The notes under the pieces were generated by a model. It searched no databases and was not told the origin of the DNA. It saw only the letters and a program-made list of their open reading frames with translations. A stretch of DNA of 64,000 nt, taken from positions 23,153,147 through 23,217,146 of the forward strand of contig OZ038457.1 in NCBI GenBank assembly GCA_964036195.1, in the 5' to 3' direction. The stretch's first letter is position 1; every line of letters begins with the position of its first letter. The position numbers and the translations under genes are program-made. Origin of the DNA: Sphaerolaimus hirsutus. Its lineage: Eukaryota; Nematoda; Chromadorea; Monhysterida; Sphaerolaimidae. Positions 18,201 through 64,000 of this stretch are shown here, in pieces.

Positions 18201-21200
18201 TCCATCTGAAAAGGTCAAAAAATTGGTAAAAATGTCACCCTGTGAAAAAACGATCAGCTAACCATAAGCAGACAGGGGTCATGTAGCAAATGCCTCACTA
18301 ATAAATCGTAACCGGACAAAATCAATTGGAATACGGCCCACACTTGAAATGACACTGCCAGACTGACAAATTGACACCTGACAAATGTGTCAATCAGTTT
18401 TGTTTTCAGCGCCACCCAGATCTGGGGGCAGTCCCAGACCCTGTAAAATGCTCTGTAAAATGTAAAATGTCATGCAGAGTGTCTGAAGTCATGTAAAATG
18501 CTCTGTAAAATTACAAAATAGTTTACCAAACGTTTGCCATTGATTGCATTTTACATGACTTTTGAAACGTTGCATGACAATTGTCATTTAGCAGTGTATT
18601 TTACAGGGTCTGGGACTGGCACCAGCGCGCAGTTGGCCAATATGCCCAAAATGGACAGAATGCTGGCGCTGACCATCTCCGACTCGTGGCCCGCCATTGA
18701 TATCAACTCGATCGTTCGGTTGCACATTTCTGGATGTATCCTCGCAGTTGTCTACGTGAAATCAGTGCCTATATTTGCAGCGCGCAATAAAATTGACGTT
18801 TTGAGCCGTGGACACATGAATCTGCATATTGAATGTGACAGTTAGCAGGGAATTGTTTATTAATCCATTTATTTAAAATGGATTAATCCAATGTTTATTA
18901 ATCCATTTAAAATACCCTTGGAATTGCAAATAGATATGCATGGTAATTGAAAACTGATGGTACTTAGCATGTACATACTCTGCCTTATCGTGGCATAGCG
19001 GCACTATTTTGTACACTAATAACCTAACTATGTATGTATGTATGTTTCTTGATAGGGCAACATGCTCTACGGAAAATTTCCGCATATTTTGATGAATAGT
19101 CATGATCGGTAAATATGATGGAATATTCACCAAATCCACCGACAGTGCAAATAATGAGAAAAATACTGGGGGGGTTTCAAATGTGATACTGTTGATTTCA
19201 CTGTAGGGCTGTGATGCATAGGGCTGGTTGCGAATCTGTTTTGAAGCTGCCCAATTAAAAATGGCATATTTTAAAATCCCTTGAGTCAAATTTAGTACTA
19301 TTCTTCTTTTACTATTTTTCTTCTACTATCACCTCTGAGGGGGGTACAGATGGCACTAAATACTGTACAAAATGATCACCATGTATTGCATTCCTGTTGT
19401 GGTAGTGTATATTTAGCTTTGGAACAGCGAGAAGATTTGTTATTTTCAATTTTAAAAGCAATTAATTTGTTAGATTGACTGGTGAATCACATTTCACCAA
19501 CCATTTGTGATTTTGACGGCATCAAGTGCATGTTCCTGCTGAGAACACTGACTACCGTATTTCCTCGAAATACCCCCGGGGGGTTTATTGTTTCAGAGTG
19601 AGAATTTTGAGGGGGGGTTAAACGAGGGGGGGGGGGTATTTCGAGGGGGGGGGGGGTTATTATTTCGCCAGAAATTTTTTGAAATCCCAGTACTCAAATG
19701 TCGTCTGAAACGTACGCAGACGTCGAAAAATGCAACAAAAATCGTCATTTATAAGACTCTAAAGACATTTATAAGTGTGTAGACGTACAAACACTGTTCT
19801 CACATAACAGAGTCATCGTTTTTAACGTGTGTTCTGCATTGTCGGGATGACAAACCGCAGCCTTTGTCATTTACGTTCTCTATACACTAAATTTGGGGGG
19901 GGTATTTCGAGGGGGGGGGGTTTATAAGTTCATAGTGTCCATTTTGAGGGGGGTATTTCGAGGAAATACGGTAAATACTTTTTTTTAGTGTGAATGCCTT
20001 GGCATAAATGTTTGATATAAAAACTTGTGACCAGACCTTTGTAACCTTCCCCCAATTATCCATTCACTCTTTAAAGCATACAGAAAGGGATGCTACACAA
20101 CCACATTTGCTACGAAGACCATGAAAAAAGCAACCCAGTTCTTGCATATTTACGTGAAACTACGCGCTTGTGGACAACATTCTTGCATTTTATCTAGAGC
20201 ATAAGCAACAAAATATTTGCCAACCCAAGGTTTGCAATTGGAAGGATGATACATTTCTATAGATATGCAGACCATCGCAATGGTCAATGCATATCATATT
20301 CGACTAAAAGAAAATTGTTCAATTTAAAGTCACGGTGAAAACTAGTGTGTGTAGGCACATTTGTACCGAATTCCATCTGAAAACTTTCACTGAGAATACT
20401 CTTCAAAAAGTTAGTTACACCTGAACTTTAAAACCACGTCTAAACTATTTTTCCATTCCACTCATGTATGTAGTAACTTGAGTTGGAAAAAAACGTTTTT
20501 TTAACTCGATGTTTTTTATTTAAAAAAACACTTTTTTATATTAAAAAAACGTTTTTTTAAATAAAAAACGTTGTTTTTAGAAAGCTCCCAGATATGACAT
20601 TGTGTCAACATATATAGGTATATCAGACAGTGGCAATACTCTGTGATGTTATATATGACCATATAATGGCTGTGGAGCCATGGGATAGCATTATAAGTGG
20701 TGATTTGTGTCAAAATTATCCATTTTTTGTCGACATATCGTTCGTATATCGCCTTATAGTCGAATGTTCATGACTTCAGGTAAAGTTTGGCACAGAATAG
20801 TGATCAAACAAGGTTATAAAAGGAGGTTGTTACTTTGGGAGTGAAGTTACACACTGTGGAGGTACATGGAAGCACATTACCTCAATATTATATAGTACAG
20901 CAACATATGACGGCTTATTAACCCATGGTAGCACATAGAAATGGATACTTTGATACTAAAAATGCCACAAAACCAATGAAAACAACCACCAATGTCAATT
21001 TGTGTGTGAAATTGCGCGCTTGCGCGCAAAAATTTTGCAAAATACCTAGTGCTTAGTACAAAAAATTTTGGCCGATGGTTTACAAAAAAAACAACATTTT
21101 GGACGTCATGTTTTTTAAAAAAAACATCGGCCAACCCTAGTAGTAACTATTGATTTGGTCGAGCACCTGACTGATCTTGTTTGTTTTCACCTGTTATTTC

Positions 21201-50300: not shown

Positions 50301-53300
50301 AAATTGAATATTGTTGATCAGTCACACTACCACGCAGAATAGTTTAGACTTTTTCGCTGCATCATTAACCGACGGTGAGAGCATGTAATGTGTTGAAAAA
50401 TGCAAACTTTTATCCTGATGGCATATGGCATTCCTCATTGTAAAATACCGTATTTGCTTGAATAATCCCTCTGGGGGATTATTGTTTCGTCAGACTTTTT
50501 TGAGTGGGGAACTAATCGAGGGGGGGGATTATTCAAGGGGGAATTATTATTTCGTCAGCAATTTCAACCATATTTCTATCAACTTATTTGATGAAATATG
50601 CTTTATTCACACAAAAACGTGCCATTTTTGTTCAAATTGGGCACAATAAATTGAGCAAATGTCTTAACGGGGGGATTATTCGAGAGGGGAATTATTATTT
50701 CCTCACTCGTCTTACAGGGAGGAATTATTCCAAGGGGGGGACTATTCAAGCAAATACGGTATTGGTTCCATATAAGGTATTTTACACTTGTAGGTAAAGT
50801 CGGCAGACATATCGCCCTACAAACATTTGCGTCAATCTCTCCAGTGGAGAGTGCATGACGGCATTAGGTATTGTGACGCAATATTTTAACCATTGGAATA
50901 GATCGGGTCACGTATGAAAACTTGGCCCTTATCCCAGTTACCAGTTGCGTATTATACAAATGAGAGTGAAAACTGAAAGTTAGCTAAAAATTGTTCAAAT
51001 TTACTTCGCTTTGCCAATTTCCACCTTCATAATCGCTATTTTTGTTTATATACATGGTTATATAGCTATTGTGAGCTATCTTATTCATATTAATAGCGGA
51101 TTTCGAAATTTTGGCCGGCTGCCAAGTTCTCTTCTGTTGGAAAATAAATGAACGAATGAACGAGCCAACGAATGAAAAATAAAATAAAAACCAAAACGGT
51201 AGTTTGAACGGTAAAACGGTAGTTTGAACGGTCAAATTCTTTACGAGCAACGTTGAAAATGTAGATAACTAGGGCGTGGCACGCACGGACGCAGTGAAAC
51301 GTCCATTTTTCTTTCAATATGATTTTCTTTTTCAATTTCTAGCGTCCGCGTGGGACACAAGTTTCGTTGTTCGCTCTATTCACGAGCGAATTCTAACTCT
51401 CCGATTTTGTAGGGTGAAATGTCCGCCGACTTTATCTATTTGGATATTTGCCAAAGCTGGAGATTGAAATTGAAAACAGACCGAAGTGTCTACGCAGATG
51501 CGACAGGCAGCATGGTGGGCATCCCCTTGTTCAAGCGGTTCTTCGGCTGGCCCGACACCTACCTGATGGTGGTGGGGCTGCTGTCGACCATCGCGCAGAT
51601 CATCCCGGTGCCAATCCCGGACCCTGTAAAAGGCCCTGTAAAATGTGAAATGTCATGCAAAGTGTCAAAAGTCATGGAAAATGCCCCGCAAAATGGCAAC
51701 CGAGTTCCATTTTGCAAGGCATTTTACATGACTTTTGACACTTTGCATGACATTTGACATTTTACAGGGCATTTTACAGGGTCTGAGAGTGCCCCCCGAT
51801 CGCATTCGTCCGCACCGACTGGCACATGTACCGGGATGTCGCAACTGCGGCCGCAAGGCATATGGTTCACCAGCGCTGGTCAAAAATTTGAAAAAATTTT
51901 TTAGAAAATTCTGAATTCTAATTGTATTCTGATTCCATTTTACAAGCATGTCAGATCAATTTGCTGAATGCCATTTCAAATATAAAGTAGAAAAGGGTGT
52001 AAAGTTGTTCCGTACAGTTAACACTCTGCACCCATGACACTTCACAAATTTGTCCGATATTTTATACCGTATTACCTCGAAATACCCCCATTGGGTTTTT
52101 TTATTTCGTCAGCAAAATTTGAGGGGGGGGTAATTCGAGGGGGCTTATTCGAGGGAGGGGGGTTATTGTTTCGTCAGAACTTTTCGTAAGGATCGTAGTA
52201 AATAGTAGGCATTTGCTTACCCAAAACAAGTAATAAATGTGTCCAAACAGGATATATTTGGACATAAAAACGTAGATATAATAGCTACACAAACACAAAT
52301 GTGTAGCTGCGATGCAAATTAGCAGTAATAAATAGGTACATAATGTACATTGCATACATGATGTACATCATTCCGGGGGGGGGGGGTATTTATTATTTAC
52401 CCAGCACGTTTTGAGGGGGGGGGGTAATTCAAGGGGGGGGGTGATTTGAGGTAATGCGGTATTTTGAAAGCCGCTGGACCGGCCACTGAACTCTGAGCGC
52501 GTGCAATATAAAAATGTCCAGCGTGGGTGAAAACTGGCGCCTACGCGGCTGCAACTGCGACGGACATGTATTTAGCCGCCGTTCTGGGCATGTTCGACGG
52601 GATCACCATGCCCGCTCTGATCTCCTTCGGAAACAAGCAGTTCGGCCCTCAGGAGGTAAGCTACCCCTGGCGCCAGTCCCACACCCTGTAAAGTGTAAAG
52701 TAAGGTGTCAAATGTCAGGTAAAATCTCATAGGTAAGTTCAGTAATAACATCTTTTTTCAATGAACACTTTGCATGACATTTGGGTGCGGTACTAAACAC
52801 TGATACTTAACACTTTACGGGGTGCGGGACTGTCCCCTGGCCACCTCACTGCGGCCAATTCTAGATATTTTACCCTTTGTTTAGACATCTTTAAACTCGT
52901 GCTGGTTTTTCCATTGCAGATGGGTAGATTCATGACATCAGGTGCGTTTGGTTTACTTTTTCGCAGCATTATAATCTGGGATGAAATTTACCACATCCAA
53001 TTTAGATATTTATATTTTTGTGTAGTTTCGGTAAATTTTATCTGATATTATATATAGCAGGATGTTCCGACCATAGCTGGGTCGTTTAGTGTCGGGCCTA
53101 CATTCAACATTTAGTGCTAGCCGTGCACTCTGTGAAATGTTATGTGAATTGTAAAATGTAAAATGTGCAGTAACATTTATTTTCACTGAAAATGTGCCAC
53201 TCTACATTACATTTTACATGGTGTACTGCGAGCTAGCCTCTGAACAGTTAATATAACACGTCACAAAATTTTGTGCAGGCATGCTTCTGAGCCAGTTGGT

Positions 53301-54368
53301 GGCGAAGGGTATGCACAGTTTCATTTTGCAACCGCTCTACCTCGGCACCGTGGACACGTTCCCCGGCTGCTACCTGCTAGTCACTGCCGGCACACAGGTC
53401 ACTTTTGATATCTATCTCACTGTTGCGCCTACACACACTACGTTGTCGTCGAAAACTCACAAATCAGCTTCAAACGCATTTGAGTTTTCTAGAACGCCAT
53501 TTTTCATCTCTGTCAACTGTAGTTGACGGAGAGCACGTTCCGGTGAACTCAGACGCGTTCAAAGATGAGTGATGAATTTTCGAAATTTCGGTTGAAAACA
53601 CTAGCATAGAGTGCCGAATGTGTGACGTCCAAATGATAAAGCCGGAGTTACAGCATAACGACAAATAGCAGCTGAAGCGGCAAATTCAGTTTAGACAAAT
53701 GACAAAAACTCGAGAACGCTTAGCGATATCCATCCCCAAATTGAGATGATGAAAGCACTAACCGATATCTACATCGTGTCCAAAAATTATTTAAAAAGCT
53801 CCAGTAGTTTTAGAAATATAAATTTCGCTATTTGTCAACAATTCCAATGAGAAATTTTGCCGACAAATAGCGAAATTTTTAATTTTGATTTATATCTGGA
53901 TTTATATTTCCCACTGGAGCTTTTCAGATCATTTTTGGACACGATGTAGATACCGGTTAGTGCTTTCAACATCTCAATTTGGGGATGGATATCCCTACAC
54001 ATTCTCGAGTATTTGTAATTTGTCACCACTGAATTTGTCGCTTCAGCTCCCATTTGTCATTGTGCTGTAACTCCAGCTTAACGTGCCTCTAAACACAGGT
54101 GCTCACGCTTCTGGTGGTGCTGGCCATCCATGTGATAGCCAAGCGCGACCACCGCATCCATGCGGCAGATGCGGGCAACCGCATGGAGCAACCGCACGCG
54201 TCAGACACGGGCGACCGCATGGAACAACTGGATGCAGCAGCCACGATGGCAGATGCAGACGCGACGCCCGCAGACGCGGCCACCATGCCGCCAGCAGAGG
54301 CTGCAGCAGCGGTGGCAGCTGTGAGTGCTGTGCAGCGACGGACTGTGGAACTCAATGGCGTGGCGTGA
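44280..54368 (+). CDS. SLC46: SLC46-family (PCFT-like) major facilitator transporter, 14 coding segments
   Basis: Multi-pass membrane transporter of the family that includes proton-coupled folate transporters; the actual substrate cannot be read from sequence. Segments: 44280-44399, 44714-44749, 44823-44946, 45861-46011, 46100-46183, 47295-47501, 49526-49725, 50206-50292, 51507-51607, 51790-51830, 52571-52655, 52920-52941, 53279-53397, 54099-54368. Together 1647 bases, one open frame, about 548 aa. Family marks: N-terminal SVEPISAMAFVAQSLF; MFS motif A LLGSHSDKYGRQMRIV; GGPPMVPISGHSFLADSITD; central loop then RPGHKRLLMLLSISIFCSFA; PLSW after TM7; YLAAVLGMFDGITMPALISF; last helix VLTLLVVLAIHVIAKRD and an Ala/Asp-rich tail. 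AATAAA at 54438 is a fitting polyadenylation signal. The junctions at 51607/51790 and 51830/52571 are transposon-made. Confidence 0.9.
44714..44749 (+). CDS. SLC46: Transporter exon 2 (36 bp)
   Basis: Acceptor atttcacag, strong donor cca|gtacgt, 12 codons AMRTKLERTYYP. Chosen because both neighbours need phase 0; the longer reading in this interval runs into a wrong phase. Confidence 0.7.
44823..44946 (+). CDS. SLC46: Transporter exon 3 (TM2)
   Basis: Acceptor cacattcag, donor tttag|gtcagt, phase 1 out. Codes for IDGSLQKRVTAWNIFADIPG and IPISLLSSALLG, the helix leading into motif A. Confidence 0.85.
45437..45546. mobile_element. 110-bp hAT-type miniature element, GGCGCC arms
   Basis: Ends TAGTGATGGAAAAAGCGCCA and GGCGCTTTTCCATCACTA; perfect 8-bp duplication GTAATGAG (45429-45436, 45547-45554). 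It lies in a transporter intron and shows the minimal form: two arms and no core. Confidence 0.92.
45600..45839. mobile_element. GTGAAAACT palindromic miniature element
   Basis: Ends CTACACACACTAGTTTTCAT and GTGAAAACTAGTGTGTGTAG; inside are ATGGCGACATGGCGAC and an AT-rich centre. It ends about 20 bases before a transporter acceptor. Confidence 0.8.
45861..46011 (+). CDS. SLC46: Transporter exon 4 (MFS motif A, TM3)
   Basis: Acceptor acacccag, donor gacgt|gtgagt. Codes for GSHSDKYGRQMRIVVCLVGD, the G-x-x-x-D-K-x-G-R motif A, and two hydrophobic segments ending GFWIVDV. Confidence 0.9.
46100..46183 (+). CDS. SLC46: Transporter exon 5 (TM4)
   Basis: Acceptor cacacgcag, donor gtcag|gtgtgt. Codes for AGGPPMVPISGHSFLADSIT and DRELVVV. 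The G-G....S-x-x-A-D segment is conserved in SLC46. Confidence 0.85.
46203..46523. mobile_element. TA-flanked miniature element (CCGTATT family)
   Basis: Inverse ends CCGTATTTCCTCGAAGTACC and GAGTATTTCGAGGAAATACG in a transporter intron. Confidence 0.8.
47295..47501 (+). CDS. SLC46: Transporter exon 6 (TM5-TM6)
   Basis: Acceptor ctgctcgcag, donor ggcaa|gtatgg, phase 2 both sides. Codes for GWNQGGRLVGQLVGMGVVAL, SIPYWLLVAMLMLVWPLLW and the start of the central loop. Confidence 0.87.
48122..48919. mobile_element. hAT-type element with AAGTGT arms
   Basis: Ends CAGAGTTGCGAAAGTGTATT and CCGGTATTTTAACAACTCTG; perfect 8-bp duplication GTAATTAC (48114-48121, 48920-48927). Relative of 43494-44171 in which the arm repeat is AAGTGT instead of AAGCGT. 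Confidence 0.92.
48955..49103. mobile_element. TA-flanked miniature element (CCGTATT family)
   Basis: Inverse ends CCGTATTGCCTTGAAATAAA and GTAATTCGAGGAAATACGG; nearly all of it folds back. Confidence 0.8.
49526..49725 (+). CDS. SLC46: Transporter exon 7 (central loop, TM7)
   Basis: Acceptor aaaatgcag, donor caaa|gtgagt. Codes for the polar loop QLDGATASEKPSQDKWYQII then KKRPGHKRLLMLLSISIFCS, the R-P-x-x-R/K hinge before TM7 seen throughout SLC46. Confidence 0.85.
49955..50165. mobile_element. TA-flanked miniature element (CCGTATT family)
   Basis: Inverse ends C[CG]TATTTCCTCGAATTACC and GGTATTTCGAGGAAATACGG; ends 40 bases before the transporter acceptor at 50205. Confidence 0.8.
50206..50292 (+). 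CDS. SLC46: Transporter exon 8
   Basis: Acceptor gacgtgcag, donor ctag|gtttga, phase 1 both sides. Codes for TMGVYTMQRPLSWQPDQFAK; PLSW matches the P-L-x-W family landmark. Confidence 0.87.
50448..50759. mobile_element. TA-flanked miniature element, CTTGAATAA variant
   Basis: Inverse ends CCGTATTTGCTTGAATAATC and GACTATTCAAGCAAATACGG: same first seven bases as the family, with a changed subterminal motif. Confidence 0.8.
51507..51607 (+). CDS. SLC46: Transporter exon 9 (TM8)
   Basis: Acceptor gcgacag. Codes for GIPLFKRFFGWPDTYLMVVG and LLSTIAQIIP. It ends ATCCCG|GTGCCAATCCC, the first bases of a family A introner. Confidence 0.88.
51608..51795 (+). mobile_element. Introner, family A, in the transporter coding sequence
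   Basis: 188-bp foldback with ends GTGCCAATCCCGGACCCTGT and ACAGGGTCTGAGAGTGCCCC, flanked by CCG on both sides (51605-51607, 51796-51798). It separates codons ATC-CCG and ATC-GCA inside a membrane helix. GT is at the 5' edge; the nearest usable AG is tctgagAG at 51789. Confidence 0.88.
51790..51830 (+). CDS. SLC46: Transporter segment 10 (TM9 first part)
   Basis: With acceptor tctgagag it adds Cys-Pro-Pro and then IAFVRTDWHMY; removing the element at its CCG duplication would start at 51799 without these three residues. The frame is the same. It ends at the 7-bp repeat ACATGTA. Confidence 0.7.
51831..52563. mobile_element. Inverted-repeat element with 7-bp duplication inside the transporter frame
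   Basis: Flanked by ACATGTA (51824-51830, 52564-52570). Inverse ends of about 45 bp: the left contains TCGCAACTGCGGCCGC..AGGC and the right reads, in reverse, TCGCAGTTGCAGCCGC..AGGC, continuing to CAGCGCTGG/CACGCTGG. A TA-flanked element (52066-52459) is nested inside. Leaving out the element and one ACATGTA joins W-H-M-Y to L-A-A-V in frame. Confidence 0.85.
52066..52459. mobile_element. TA-flanked miniature element (CCGTATT family), nested
   Basis: Inverse ends CCGTATTACCTCGAAATACC and TTTGAGGTAATGCGG inside the 733-bp inverted-repeat element. Confidence 0.78.
52571..52655 (+). CDS. SLC46: Transporter segment 11 (TM9-TM10)
   Basis: Joined after ACATGTA, codon TA|T gives YLAAVLGMFDGITMPALISF then GNKQFGPQE; donor caggag|gtaagc. 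No canonical acceptor gives this frame together with a canonical donor of the previous segment. Confidence 0.75.
52670..52836. mobile_element. Introner-like element, family A, in a transporter intron
   Basis: CTG on both sides (52667-52669, 52837-52839); ends GCGCCAGTCCCACACCCTGT and ACGGGGTGCGGGACTGTCCC. It begins 14 bases after a normal gtaagc donor, so here it is a guest in an intron. Confidence 0.85.
52920..52941 (+). CDS. SLC46: Transporter exon 12 (22-bp microexon)
   Basis: Acceptor ccattgcag, donor catcag|gtgcgt. Codes for MGRFMTS. With the preceding QFGPQE it forms the conserved V-x-x-x-E-x-G-x-x-F turn after TM10. Confidence 0.78.
53118..53238. repeat. Diverged family A foldback in a transporter intron
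   Basis: Ends GCTAGCCGTGCACTCTGTGA and CATGGTGTACTGCGAGCTAG, with TGTAAAATG and CATTTTACA inside. The core matches family A but the termini are changed. Confidence 0.5.
53279..53397 (+). CDS. SLC46: Transporter exon 13 (TM11, TM12 start)
   Basis: Acceptor ttttgtgcag, donor acacag|gtcact. Codes for MLLSQLVAKGMHSFILQPLY and FPGCYLLVTAG. Confidence 0.85.
53638..54085. mobile_element. Palindromic element, AGCCGGAGTTACAGC family
   Basis: Ends AAGCCGGAGTTACAGCATAA and TGTGCTGTAACTCCAGCTTA; inside are gacaaatagcagctgaag and its inverse. A second copy runs from 55316 to about 56893 and is interrupted by other elements. It lies just before the transporter acceptor at 54098. Confidence 0.7.
54099..54368 (+). 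CDS. SLC46: Transporter exon 14 (TM12, C-terminal tail)
   Basis: Acceptor taaacacag. Codes for VLTLLVVLAIHVIAKRDHRI and a tail with two G-x-R-M-E-Q repeats and many Ala; stop TGA at 54366. AATAAA follows about 70 bases later. Confidence 0.87.
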   Translation: MLTLLVVLAIHVIAKRDHRIHAADAGNRMEQPHASDTGDRMEQLDAAATMADADATPADAATMPPAEAAAAVAAVSAVQRRTVELNGVA

Positions 54369-62597: not shown

Positions 62598-64000
62598 TTA
62601 CTCCGCTTCCATTTCCTCCTCTGGCTCCAAACCTGCCAAAGTTGGAGTCACTGGCGGGGGCGGACTCTGTTCCTCTTGCGGTGGCGGTGACGCGCCAACT
62701 ACAACAACCTGAACAGGTTGCTGCAGCTGCTGCTGTGCGGCCACTTCCTCAGGCTGCTCTTGCTCATCTTCCTGCATGGGCTCAGCAGACTCATTGGCCT
62801 CCTCCTGGATGGCGTCCATTTGTCTTAGCATCTGCCGGTCTGGGCTCATGGACTGTTGCTGTCGCTCAGCGTCCAACTCGGTGTTCAACTCGCCCGCCAT
62901 TTGAATTAACTCATCCAATTTTTCTCCAATAATTGCATTATTGGCCTCTTCAGTATCTGGCTCTGGTTCTTGCTCTTGCCGTTGACCTTCCATTGCCGGT
63001 TCCTGCTGTTGAGCATCTTGTTCACTTTGCTCCTGTTCCACCTCCATCACTTCCTCCTCCTGGTGCGTTTTCTGTTTGTGTGCCGGTACGGGCGGCGCGT
63101 GTTCTGACTCCGAGGCCGAATCGGTCTCACTCGATCCCGATTTTGACGAACCCGACGACGAACTAGAGGAAGAGGAAGAACTCGACGAGGGAGAGCGACG
63201 ACGACCGCGATACCGACGCCGAGACCGAGAACAACTCGCTTTTTCATCCGCGCGCGGCTGAACTTTCTCCGACGACTCCTCCTCCTGCTCTTCGGGCGGC
63301 AACATTTGCACGTCTGGTGAATCGGGAGCGGGAACGACATCGGCGTCTGGCTGAGGGGACACTCGCTGTTCGCTCACATCCACCTCCTGAACCTCTTCCG
63401 GCGGCGGCGGAACCTCATTTTCTTCTTCTTCTTCTTGCACGGGCGGAGCGGGTTCTGGCAGATCGACCGGGGCACTTCTCCAGTGGCCCAGAAACCTAGC
63501 CAACGGGTCACTTTCCCACAAATGTCGCTCGTGGTACGCAAAAACGTGTCCCTTCCCTAATTCCACCGCCACAAAGCGCCAGAAAAATTCAGAATGCAGC
63601 ACGGTAGCGGCGTTCATGATCACGACTCTGGCCGTTTTGGCGCGAGACGTGGCCACGTTGCACCGCTCCGGCATCGCCAAAAAGCCAATTCTGTCCATCA
63701 CATCGCGCTCGCGCTGCGACGGGTGTCCAGTAGCGTCCACGCGCGGCGCGCTGCCCCTCACACATGACACAATCACTACGTGCGCTTCACGAGCTTGCGC
63801 TCGATCGGCAGTGATGACTTTTTTCCGCCAAAACGCTGGGGTCACCAAATAATCGGGGAACCCCTCACCCCCTAACAACTGCGCCCAGCTCAATCGCACC
63901 AATTCGTCAATCACTCTTCTCTCCTGCGCGGAATAGAAACACACAATCAGCAGCGAATCGGCGCTTTCTAAATCACTCCACGGAACGACATTCTCGCCCT
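62598..64000 (-). CDS. UPF1-like superfamily 1 helicase, C-terminal part
   Basis: Open from the window edge to TAA at 62598 without introns; about 467 codons visible, 5' end outside. RecA-like domain 2 motifs in order: motif IV region SLLIVCFYSAQERRVIDEL; motif V region VITADRAQAREAHVVIVSCV, where the usual Q-G is Q-A; motif VI MPERCNVATSRAKTARVVIM with the catalytic-type R. So it belongs to the UPF1/NFX1/SMG-like SF1B group acting on RNA or DNA. After about 180 residues comes a long disordered tail: Pro/Glu stretches, a basic S-R-S-R-R-R-Y-R-G-R-R-R cluster, twelve serines in a row, then Glu/Gln-rich sequence. The frame has no ATG at its apparent left limit; it simply continues upstream. Confidence 0.85.
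   Translation of the reverse strand, partial: GENVVPWSDLESADSLLIVCFYSAQERRVIDELVRLSWAQLLGGEGFPDYLVTPAFWRKKVITADRAQAREAHVVIVSCVRGSAPRVDATGHPSQRERDVMDRIGFLAMPERCNVATSRAKTARVVIMNAATVLHSEFFWRFVAVELGKGHVFAYHERHLWESDPLARFLGHWRSAPVDLPEPAPPVQEEEEENEVPPPPEEVQEVDVSEQRVSPQPDADVVPAPDSPDVQMLPPEEQEEESSEKVQPRADEKASCSRSRRRYRGRRRSPSSSSSSSSSSSSGSSKSGSSETDSASESEHAPPVPAHKQKTHQEEEVMEVEQEQSEQDAQQQEPAMEGQRQEQEPEPDTEEANNAIIGEKLDELIQMAGELNTELDAERQQQSMSPDRQMLRQMDAIQEEANESAEPMQEDEQEQPEEVAAQQQLQQPVQVVVVGASPPPQEEQSPPPPVTPTLAGLEPEEEMEAE

Follow-up and report, generated by a model that had tools for sequence, protein, structure and literature searches.

The available text of a survey of introners (PMC9860276) records 548 introner families in 175 genomes, with just two animal groups among the carriers. 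The introners with TIRs and/or target duplications treated there (Micromonas, Aureococcus, Symbiodinium and Chrysochromulina) are transposon-derived, repeated and exonic; the element provides one splice site and a target copy the other, and the reading frame is usually kept. Those of Chrysochromulina supply a 5' site of their own, and their 3' site is borrowed. This introner architecture is therefore already known, and the family described below appears to share it. In contrast to the introners in that portion of the survey, it has a near full-length hairpin, a 3-bp CWG target, an animal host and many exonic copies without AG, and we infer its splicing from DNA. The introner elements of Amoebophrya, as presented in the accessible part of PMC7789003, are likewise hairpin introns with direct repeats of 3-5 nt at their borders and many non-canonical ends. 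Unlike those of this dinoflagellate, with their highly diverse end letters, the ends here are nearly fixed (GT...CNG). In the searched literature, the terms introners and Harbinger occurred together only in work on fungi. The listing of literature since 2023 that mentions introners contained the term in neither titles nor abstracts.

The locus lies in a 64,000-nucleotide stretch of DNA from the nematode Sphaerolaimus hirsutus, analysed as a whole (the window) and part of a 348-Mb assembly (Table 1). The initial annotation had described a 188-bp inverted-repeat (foldback) element with CCG on each side, and our analysis confirms this. The element begins with GTGCCAATCCC and ends with GAGAGTGCCCC. 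The preceding C is common to both flanks, so that the duplication may also be read as CCCG. The inverted arms comprise 90 nt, are 89% complementary and are spaced by 10 nt, and the RNA fold reaches -129.4 kcal/mol; 200 shuffled versions gave -46.3 (sd 4.1), hence z -20. An in-frame stop lies within the element. Leaving out the element and one CCG (191 nt) regains ATC-CCG-ATC-GCA in frame, the clean junction that had been claimed. Elsewhere in the window, positions 62655-63965 (minus strand) hold a 437-codon stop-free stretch, by eye of helicase type with an acidic, Q-rich tail.

Table 1. Positions of the introner candidate, a second family copy and the surrounding gene, numbered from the first base of the window.
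Feature	Position	Strand	Remarks
Hairpin introner/MITE copy, 188 bp	51608..51795	+	on the coding strand, GT at the 5' end and CCCC at the 3' end
Target duplication, 5' copy (CCG)	51605..51607	+	final codon of the upstream exon part
Target duplication, 3' copy (CCG)	51796..51798	+	CAG or CTG at this place in the majority of copies read or counted
GT, candidate 5' splice site in the element	51608..51609	+	by sequence; coding-strand GT in 16/16 homology-supported family copies
Alternative AG	51788..51789	+	by sequence; an acceptor here would add 9 nt in frame (Cys-Pro-Pro)
Split exon, upstream part, transporter-like (MFS) gene	51488..51607	+	5' boundary taken from the scored segment and not mapped as a splice site
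Split exon, downstream part (IAFVRTDWHMY)	51799..51831	+	3' edge approximate
Next exon, same gene	52572..52655	+	an ordinary donor, GTAAGC, follows; 5' boundary approximate
Further exon, same gene	53279..53397	+	...TGCAG before, GT after; edges by eye
Second family copy	18425..18622	-	5' CTG (18625-18623), 3' CAG (18424-18422)

The element belongs to a high-copy family. A 22-base pattern of the 5' end, GTGCCANTCCCRGACCCTGTAA, matched the genome 3697 times without mismatch (reversed control 0); because each match marks an end, a copy with full symmetry is counted twice. A similarity search with the window element yielded at least 40 related places, 89-100% identical, from the 40 of 2347 candidates that were scored. 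A chance palindrome as the origin of the window element was rejected on the related places genome-wide, the number of end matches and the fold z. We read 90 copies, namely 39 found by similarity, the copy in the window and the 50 that came from the top of the contig C1 list (the first 30 places and 20 of the following 21); among them, L063 repeats L012 and there are three near-duplicate pairs. The typical ends are GTGCCA and TGCCCC. The 3' end was clear in 84 copies; of these, 75 measured 140-200 bp (range 116-432), and the commonest flanks were CAG-CAG (26), CTG-CTG (20) and CTG-CAG (10). Eight of the 39 similarity-chosen copies had no initial GT on the strand shown. The flanks of the second copy in the window read SASILSILGILANCAL + IWVALKTKL in one frame, and Pfam gave no match for their 40-aa join. 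A diverged relative is located at 52670-52836 of the window; it is intronic and starts 14 bp past the first base of the next exon's donor.

By its ends and its CWG target duplication, the family would fit a non-autonomous PIF/Harbinger-type (NuwaI-like) MITE. The NuwaI group of PHIS (PIF/Harbinger) transposons, in the available portion of PMC4482050, is found in animals, makes a 3-bp CWG duplication and has TIRs that usually begin with GGG. Copies here share the CWG duplication and the animal host, and one of their ends reads GGGGC. Unlike in that group, the other end reads GTGCC, giving the GT, and the element is without a transposase. The genome contains at least 163 matches to the DDE_Tnp_4 transposase (150 of 306 candidates scored). 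Most of the copies listed span ~633 bp for 147 profile positions, an excess of ~192 bp (e.g. C1:2186255-2186878). They usually contain four in-frame TGA, and the excess resembles an intron-like insert of introner size within the gene for the transposase.

Joined-flank peptides were sought in open frame on both strands of 84 copies (the 90 minus four repeats or near-duplicates and two without a usable 3' end), and 69 copies gave 120 peptides. The Pfam input consisted of 109 peptides, 108 from 62 copies (relative to the GT end, 57 in sense and 51 in antisense orientation) and one from the window copy. Every family match was assigned to a copy, and L078 was added, read in another frame. Homology extended across the junction in 13 copies. 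These split genes for peptidase M13 (L010), innexin (L011), an FBXL2-like protein (L012), guanylate cyclase (L018), a GPCR (L017), TRAP1/HSP90 (L020), prolyl 4-hydroxylase (L043), OSCP1 (L078 and L079) and CHGN (L097) and, below the cut-off, kelch (L015), amnionless (L031) and WD40 (L035) proteins. In three further copies homology lay downstream of the junction only (L016, L032 and L033; L032 below the cut-off). PDB alignments were gapless at the junction for TRAP1, a GPCR, P4HA1 and FBXL2, and the CHGN join had no PDB match. The coding strand meets the GT end first in all 16 homology-supported copies (p=3e-5; L035 after reversal). Note that 13 of the 16 had been chosen by similarity on either strand, and that for L078, L079 and L097, found via the 5' end pattern, the strand alone carries information. 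Homology served to assign strands because codon usage is unreliable in GC-rich flanks; codon usage alone, which miscalled L078, was dropped.

Coding-like flanks on both sides were found in 19 of 42 unselected copies (the 50 minus two repeats and another six whose 3' end was not clear). Among the 1767 CWG sites of the window, 288 had such flanks. Training of the coding model used 15 copies, and this sample includes four of them. In the controls, 1673 of 20000 random window positions and 1103 of 20000 positions in the same loci were coding on both sides. Of the two copies that split OSCP1, one has CTG-CTG and the other CAG-CAG flanks. These two copies lie at C1:3591983-3593281, where three family ends occur within 1.3 kb, the third match on the opposite strand. 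The end of L016 coincides with the exact start of a nicotinic-receptor-like match, and the DNA upstream is without recognised coding sequence; the contribution of this copy may be limited to the 3' end of a longer intron.

To locate the acceptor, we counted flanking triplets genome-wide around elements of ~172-202 bp (all controls 0). Matched triplets numbered 924 for CAG-CAG, 615 for CTG-CTG and 8 for CCG-CCG, and mismatched triplets 303 for CTG-CAG versus 95 for CAG-CTG and 35 for CCG-CAG versus 4 for CAG-CCG; the counts are not fully independent because some copies are duplicates and because of the share of the AAGCCC subfamily. Members of this subfamily, which start GTGCCAATCCCAAGCCCTGTAAAGTG, accounted, as judged by eye, for 18 of the 100 CTG-CAG places listed and for 9 of the 24 CAG-CTG places shown with letters. 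In the four CAG/CTG classes the 5' triplet is near-even (CAG 1019 vs CTG 918, p=0.02), while the 3' triplet is skewed (CAG 1227 vs CTG 710, p=4e-32). With the 5' triplet taken as the original, CTG changed to CAG at the 3' copy in 33% and CAG to CTG in 9% (Fisher p=7e-39). Selection for AG at the position where an intron opened by the element's GT would end predicts such a bias. Hairpin repair cannot give the skew because both mixed CAG/CTG classes pair equally well; palindrome correction as the source of CTG-CAG was thus rejected, CAG-CTG being equally palindromic and three times rarer. Protein-family scores were better with the 5' triplet kept and the 3' triplet dropped in four of five mismatched copies, L043 showing the opposite. 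This preference is expected if the 3' triplet is non-coding, or it may simply reflect CTG as the original codon. Internal canonical sites (a GTAAAA donor and an ACAG acceptor) were also considered and rejected; as calculated by hand for the consensus, their use would leave 19, 31, 37 or 49 nt behind and in each case shift the frame.

We consider it probable that the family is an introner, a PIF/Harbinger-type MITE that provides the GT from the transposon and obtains the AG from the 3' target copy. Many similar copies occupy many exonic positions at which the frame is regained, and splice sites appear to be carried or recruited, in some copies without AG. The family, its target duplication, its exonic position, its strand bias and the AG bias at the 3' copy are observed in the DNA, and from them we infer that the spliceosome removes the element from RNA, and which acceptor the window copy uses. 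The element would insert at CWG, rarely CCG, sites and duplicate 3 bp. On the coding strand, its GTGCCA end would act as the 5' splice site and its C-rich end TGCCCC would abut the 3' target triplet. With CAG as this triplet the intron would end in AG, and the element and one target copy would leave together, so that the old reading frame would be regained in any phase. At CTG or CCG targets, the 3' copy would often have been mutated to CAG.

The initial annotation had proposed that the element is an intron with its own GT. For the family this is well supported by the GT in 16 of 16 copies and the favoured AG at the 3' end, and the window copy is a candidate intron. As to the acceptor, the annotation had missed the site usual in the family, the CAG of the 3' target-duplication copy. 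The window copy is without it, belonging to the rare CCG-CCG class with no AG at the 3' end. Its most likely product would lack 51608-51798, with CG as the acceptor; slightly less probable is a product lacking 51608-51789. The annotation had allowed for both kinds of end in this copy, a non-canonical one and the AG nine bases before the clean junction. In the latter case the window copy would be a canonical GT-AG intron and the protein would gain Cys-Pro-Pro, a reading that we regard as doubtful. The AG at 51788-51789 is in frame, and the available text on Aureococcus offers a precedent for introner insertions that add codons. However, TGAGAG is also present in the TRAP1 copy, where three extra residues would hit a conserved stretch. 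The two removals cannot be told apart by their MFS_1 scores (16.8 vs 16.0 bits).

The surrounding gene looks like an MFS transporter gene. Its four joined exons matched MFS_1 in Pfam with E=0.0034, below the Pfam cut-off, and with E=2.5e-4 when the join included one extra residue from the next intron; a longer join of 301 aa had no MFS match in Pfam at E up to 0.1. No homologue above threshold was obtained from the protein database (4604 candidates, none scored). In the PDB the split exon had only chance-level matches to cytochrome oxidase, and the longer exon join had no match. The earlier assignment to SLC46 is weakly supported, the name itself being unconfirmed. The weak gene identity, together with the in-frame stop and the CCG-CCG flanks without AG, of which 8 cases were found, would suit another explanation, in which the family makes introns and the window copy is an unspliced, recent or damaging insertion, the transporter-like gene being broken or polymorphic. 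We consider this unlikely, since the downstream exons have open frames and ordinary splice sites, and copies without AG also split intact conserved genes (OSCP1, CHGN).

Exonic copies without AG fit the introner explanation poorly. Among the unselected copies, those with coding-like flanks ended in CTG in 10 cases and in AG in 9 (n=19), and those with other flanks in CTG in 4 and in AG in 11, with 8 more in neither. In this sample there was no depletion of CTG ends in exons (10/19 vs 4/15 outside, p=0.17). AG is also absent from four of the 13 junction-spanning homology copies (L015, L017, L078 and L097). Either TG and CG acceptors are functional, perhaps aided by the stem, or these copies are harmful insertions. 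Human U2 introns with TG acceptors, as treated in the available part of PMC2374985, have the 3' end of the CTG copies here; unlike these, they are confined to 36 genes, serve as alternatives only and lie at most 28 nt from an AG. Fritillaria borealis, according to papers that cite Henriet 2019, is an animal with many non-canonical introns, the majority with AG-AN ends. We tentatively raise the possibility, without favoring it, that in this animal introner hairpins are spliced out by the spliceosome on a large scale as introns of the GT-TG and GT-CG types, with the stem fixing the 3' end so that CNG can stand in for CAG, and with AG as a later improvement gained by mutation. If so, hundreds of insertions would represent successive grades between introns without AG and introns with it.

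The many exonic copies without AG and the very strong hairpin of the window copy would also favor removal without the spliceosome, as in SOS splicing or as for non-conventional introns in euglenids, with the stem joining the ends and a nuclease and a ligase acting whatever the end letters. SOS-type excision is orientation-independent and is not known to need particular end letters; it would predict neither strand bias nor 3' AG preference. The family shows both biases (16/16 GT; 303:95 and 35:4), and the hairpins of some exonic CAG copies are weak (-0.41 kcal/mol per nt in L056), which makes spliceosome-free removal improbable, despite precedents for it in the available text of a review and in diplonemids. 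Precise excision of the transposon from the DNA, for which the target duplications might permit precise repair, is highly improbable as the way of removal, as it would favor neither a 3' AG nor a coding-strand GT.

The origin of new introns is a long-standing question, and the available text of PMC9860276 has intron-making transposons in just two animal groups. Thousands of family ends in one genome constitute a natural experiment, in which similar insertions differ in whether the duplicated target provides an AG. The family suggests that acceptors may be made by point mutation after insertion, and it raises the question of whether an animal can splice hairpin introns ending in TG or CG.
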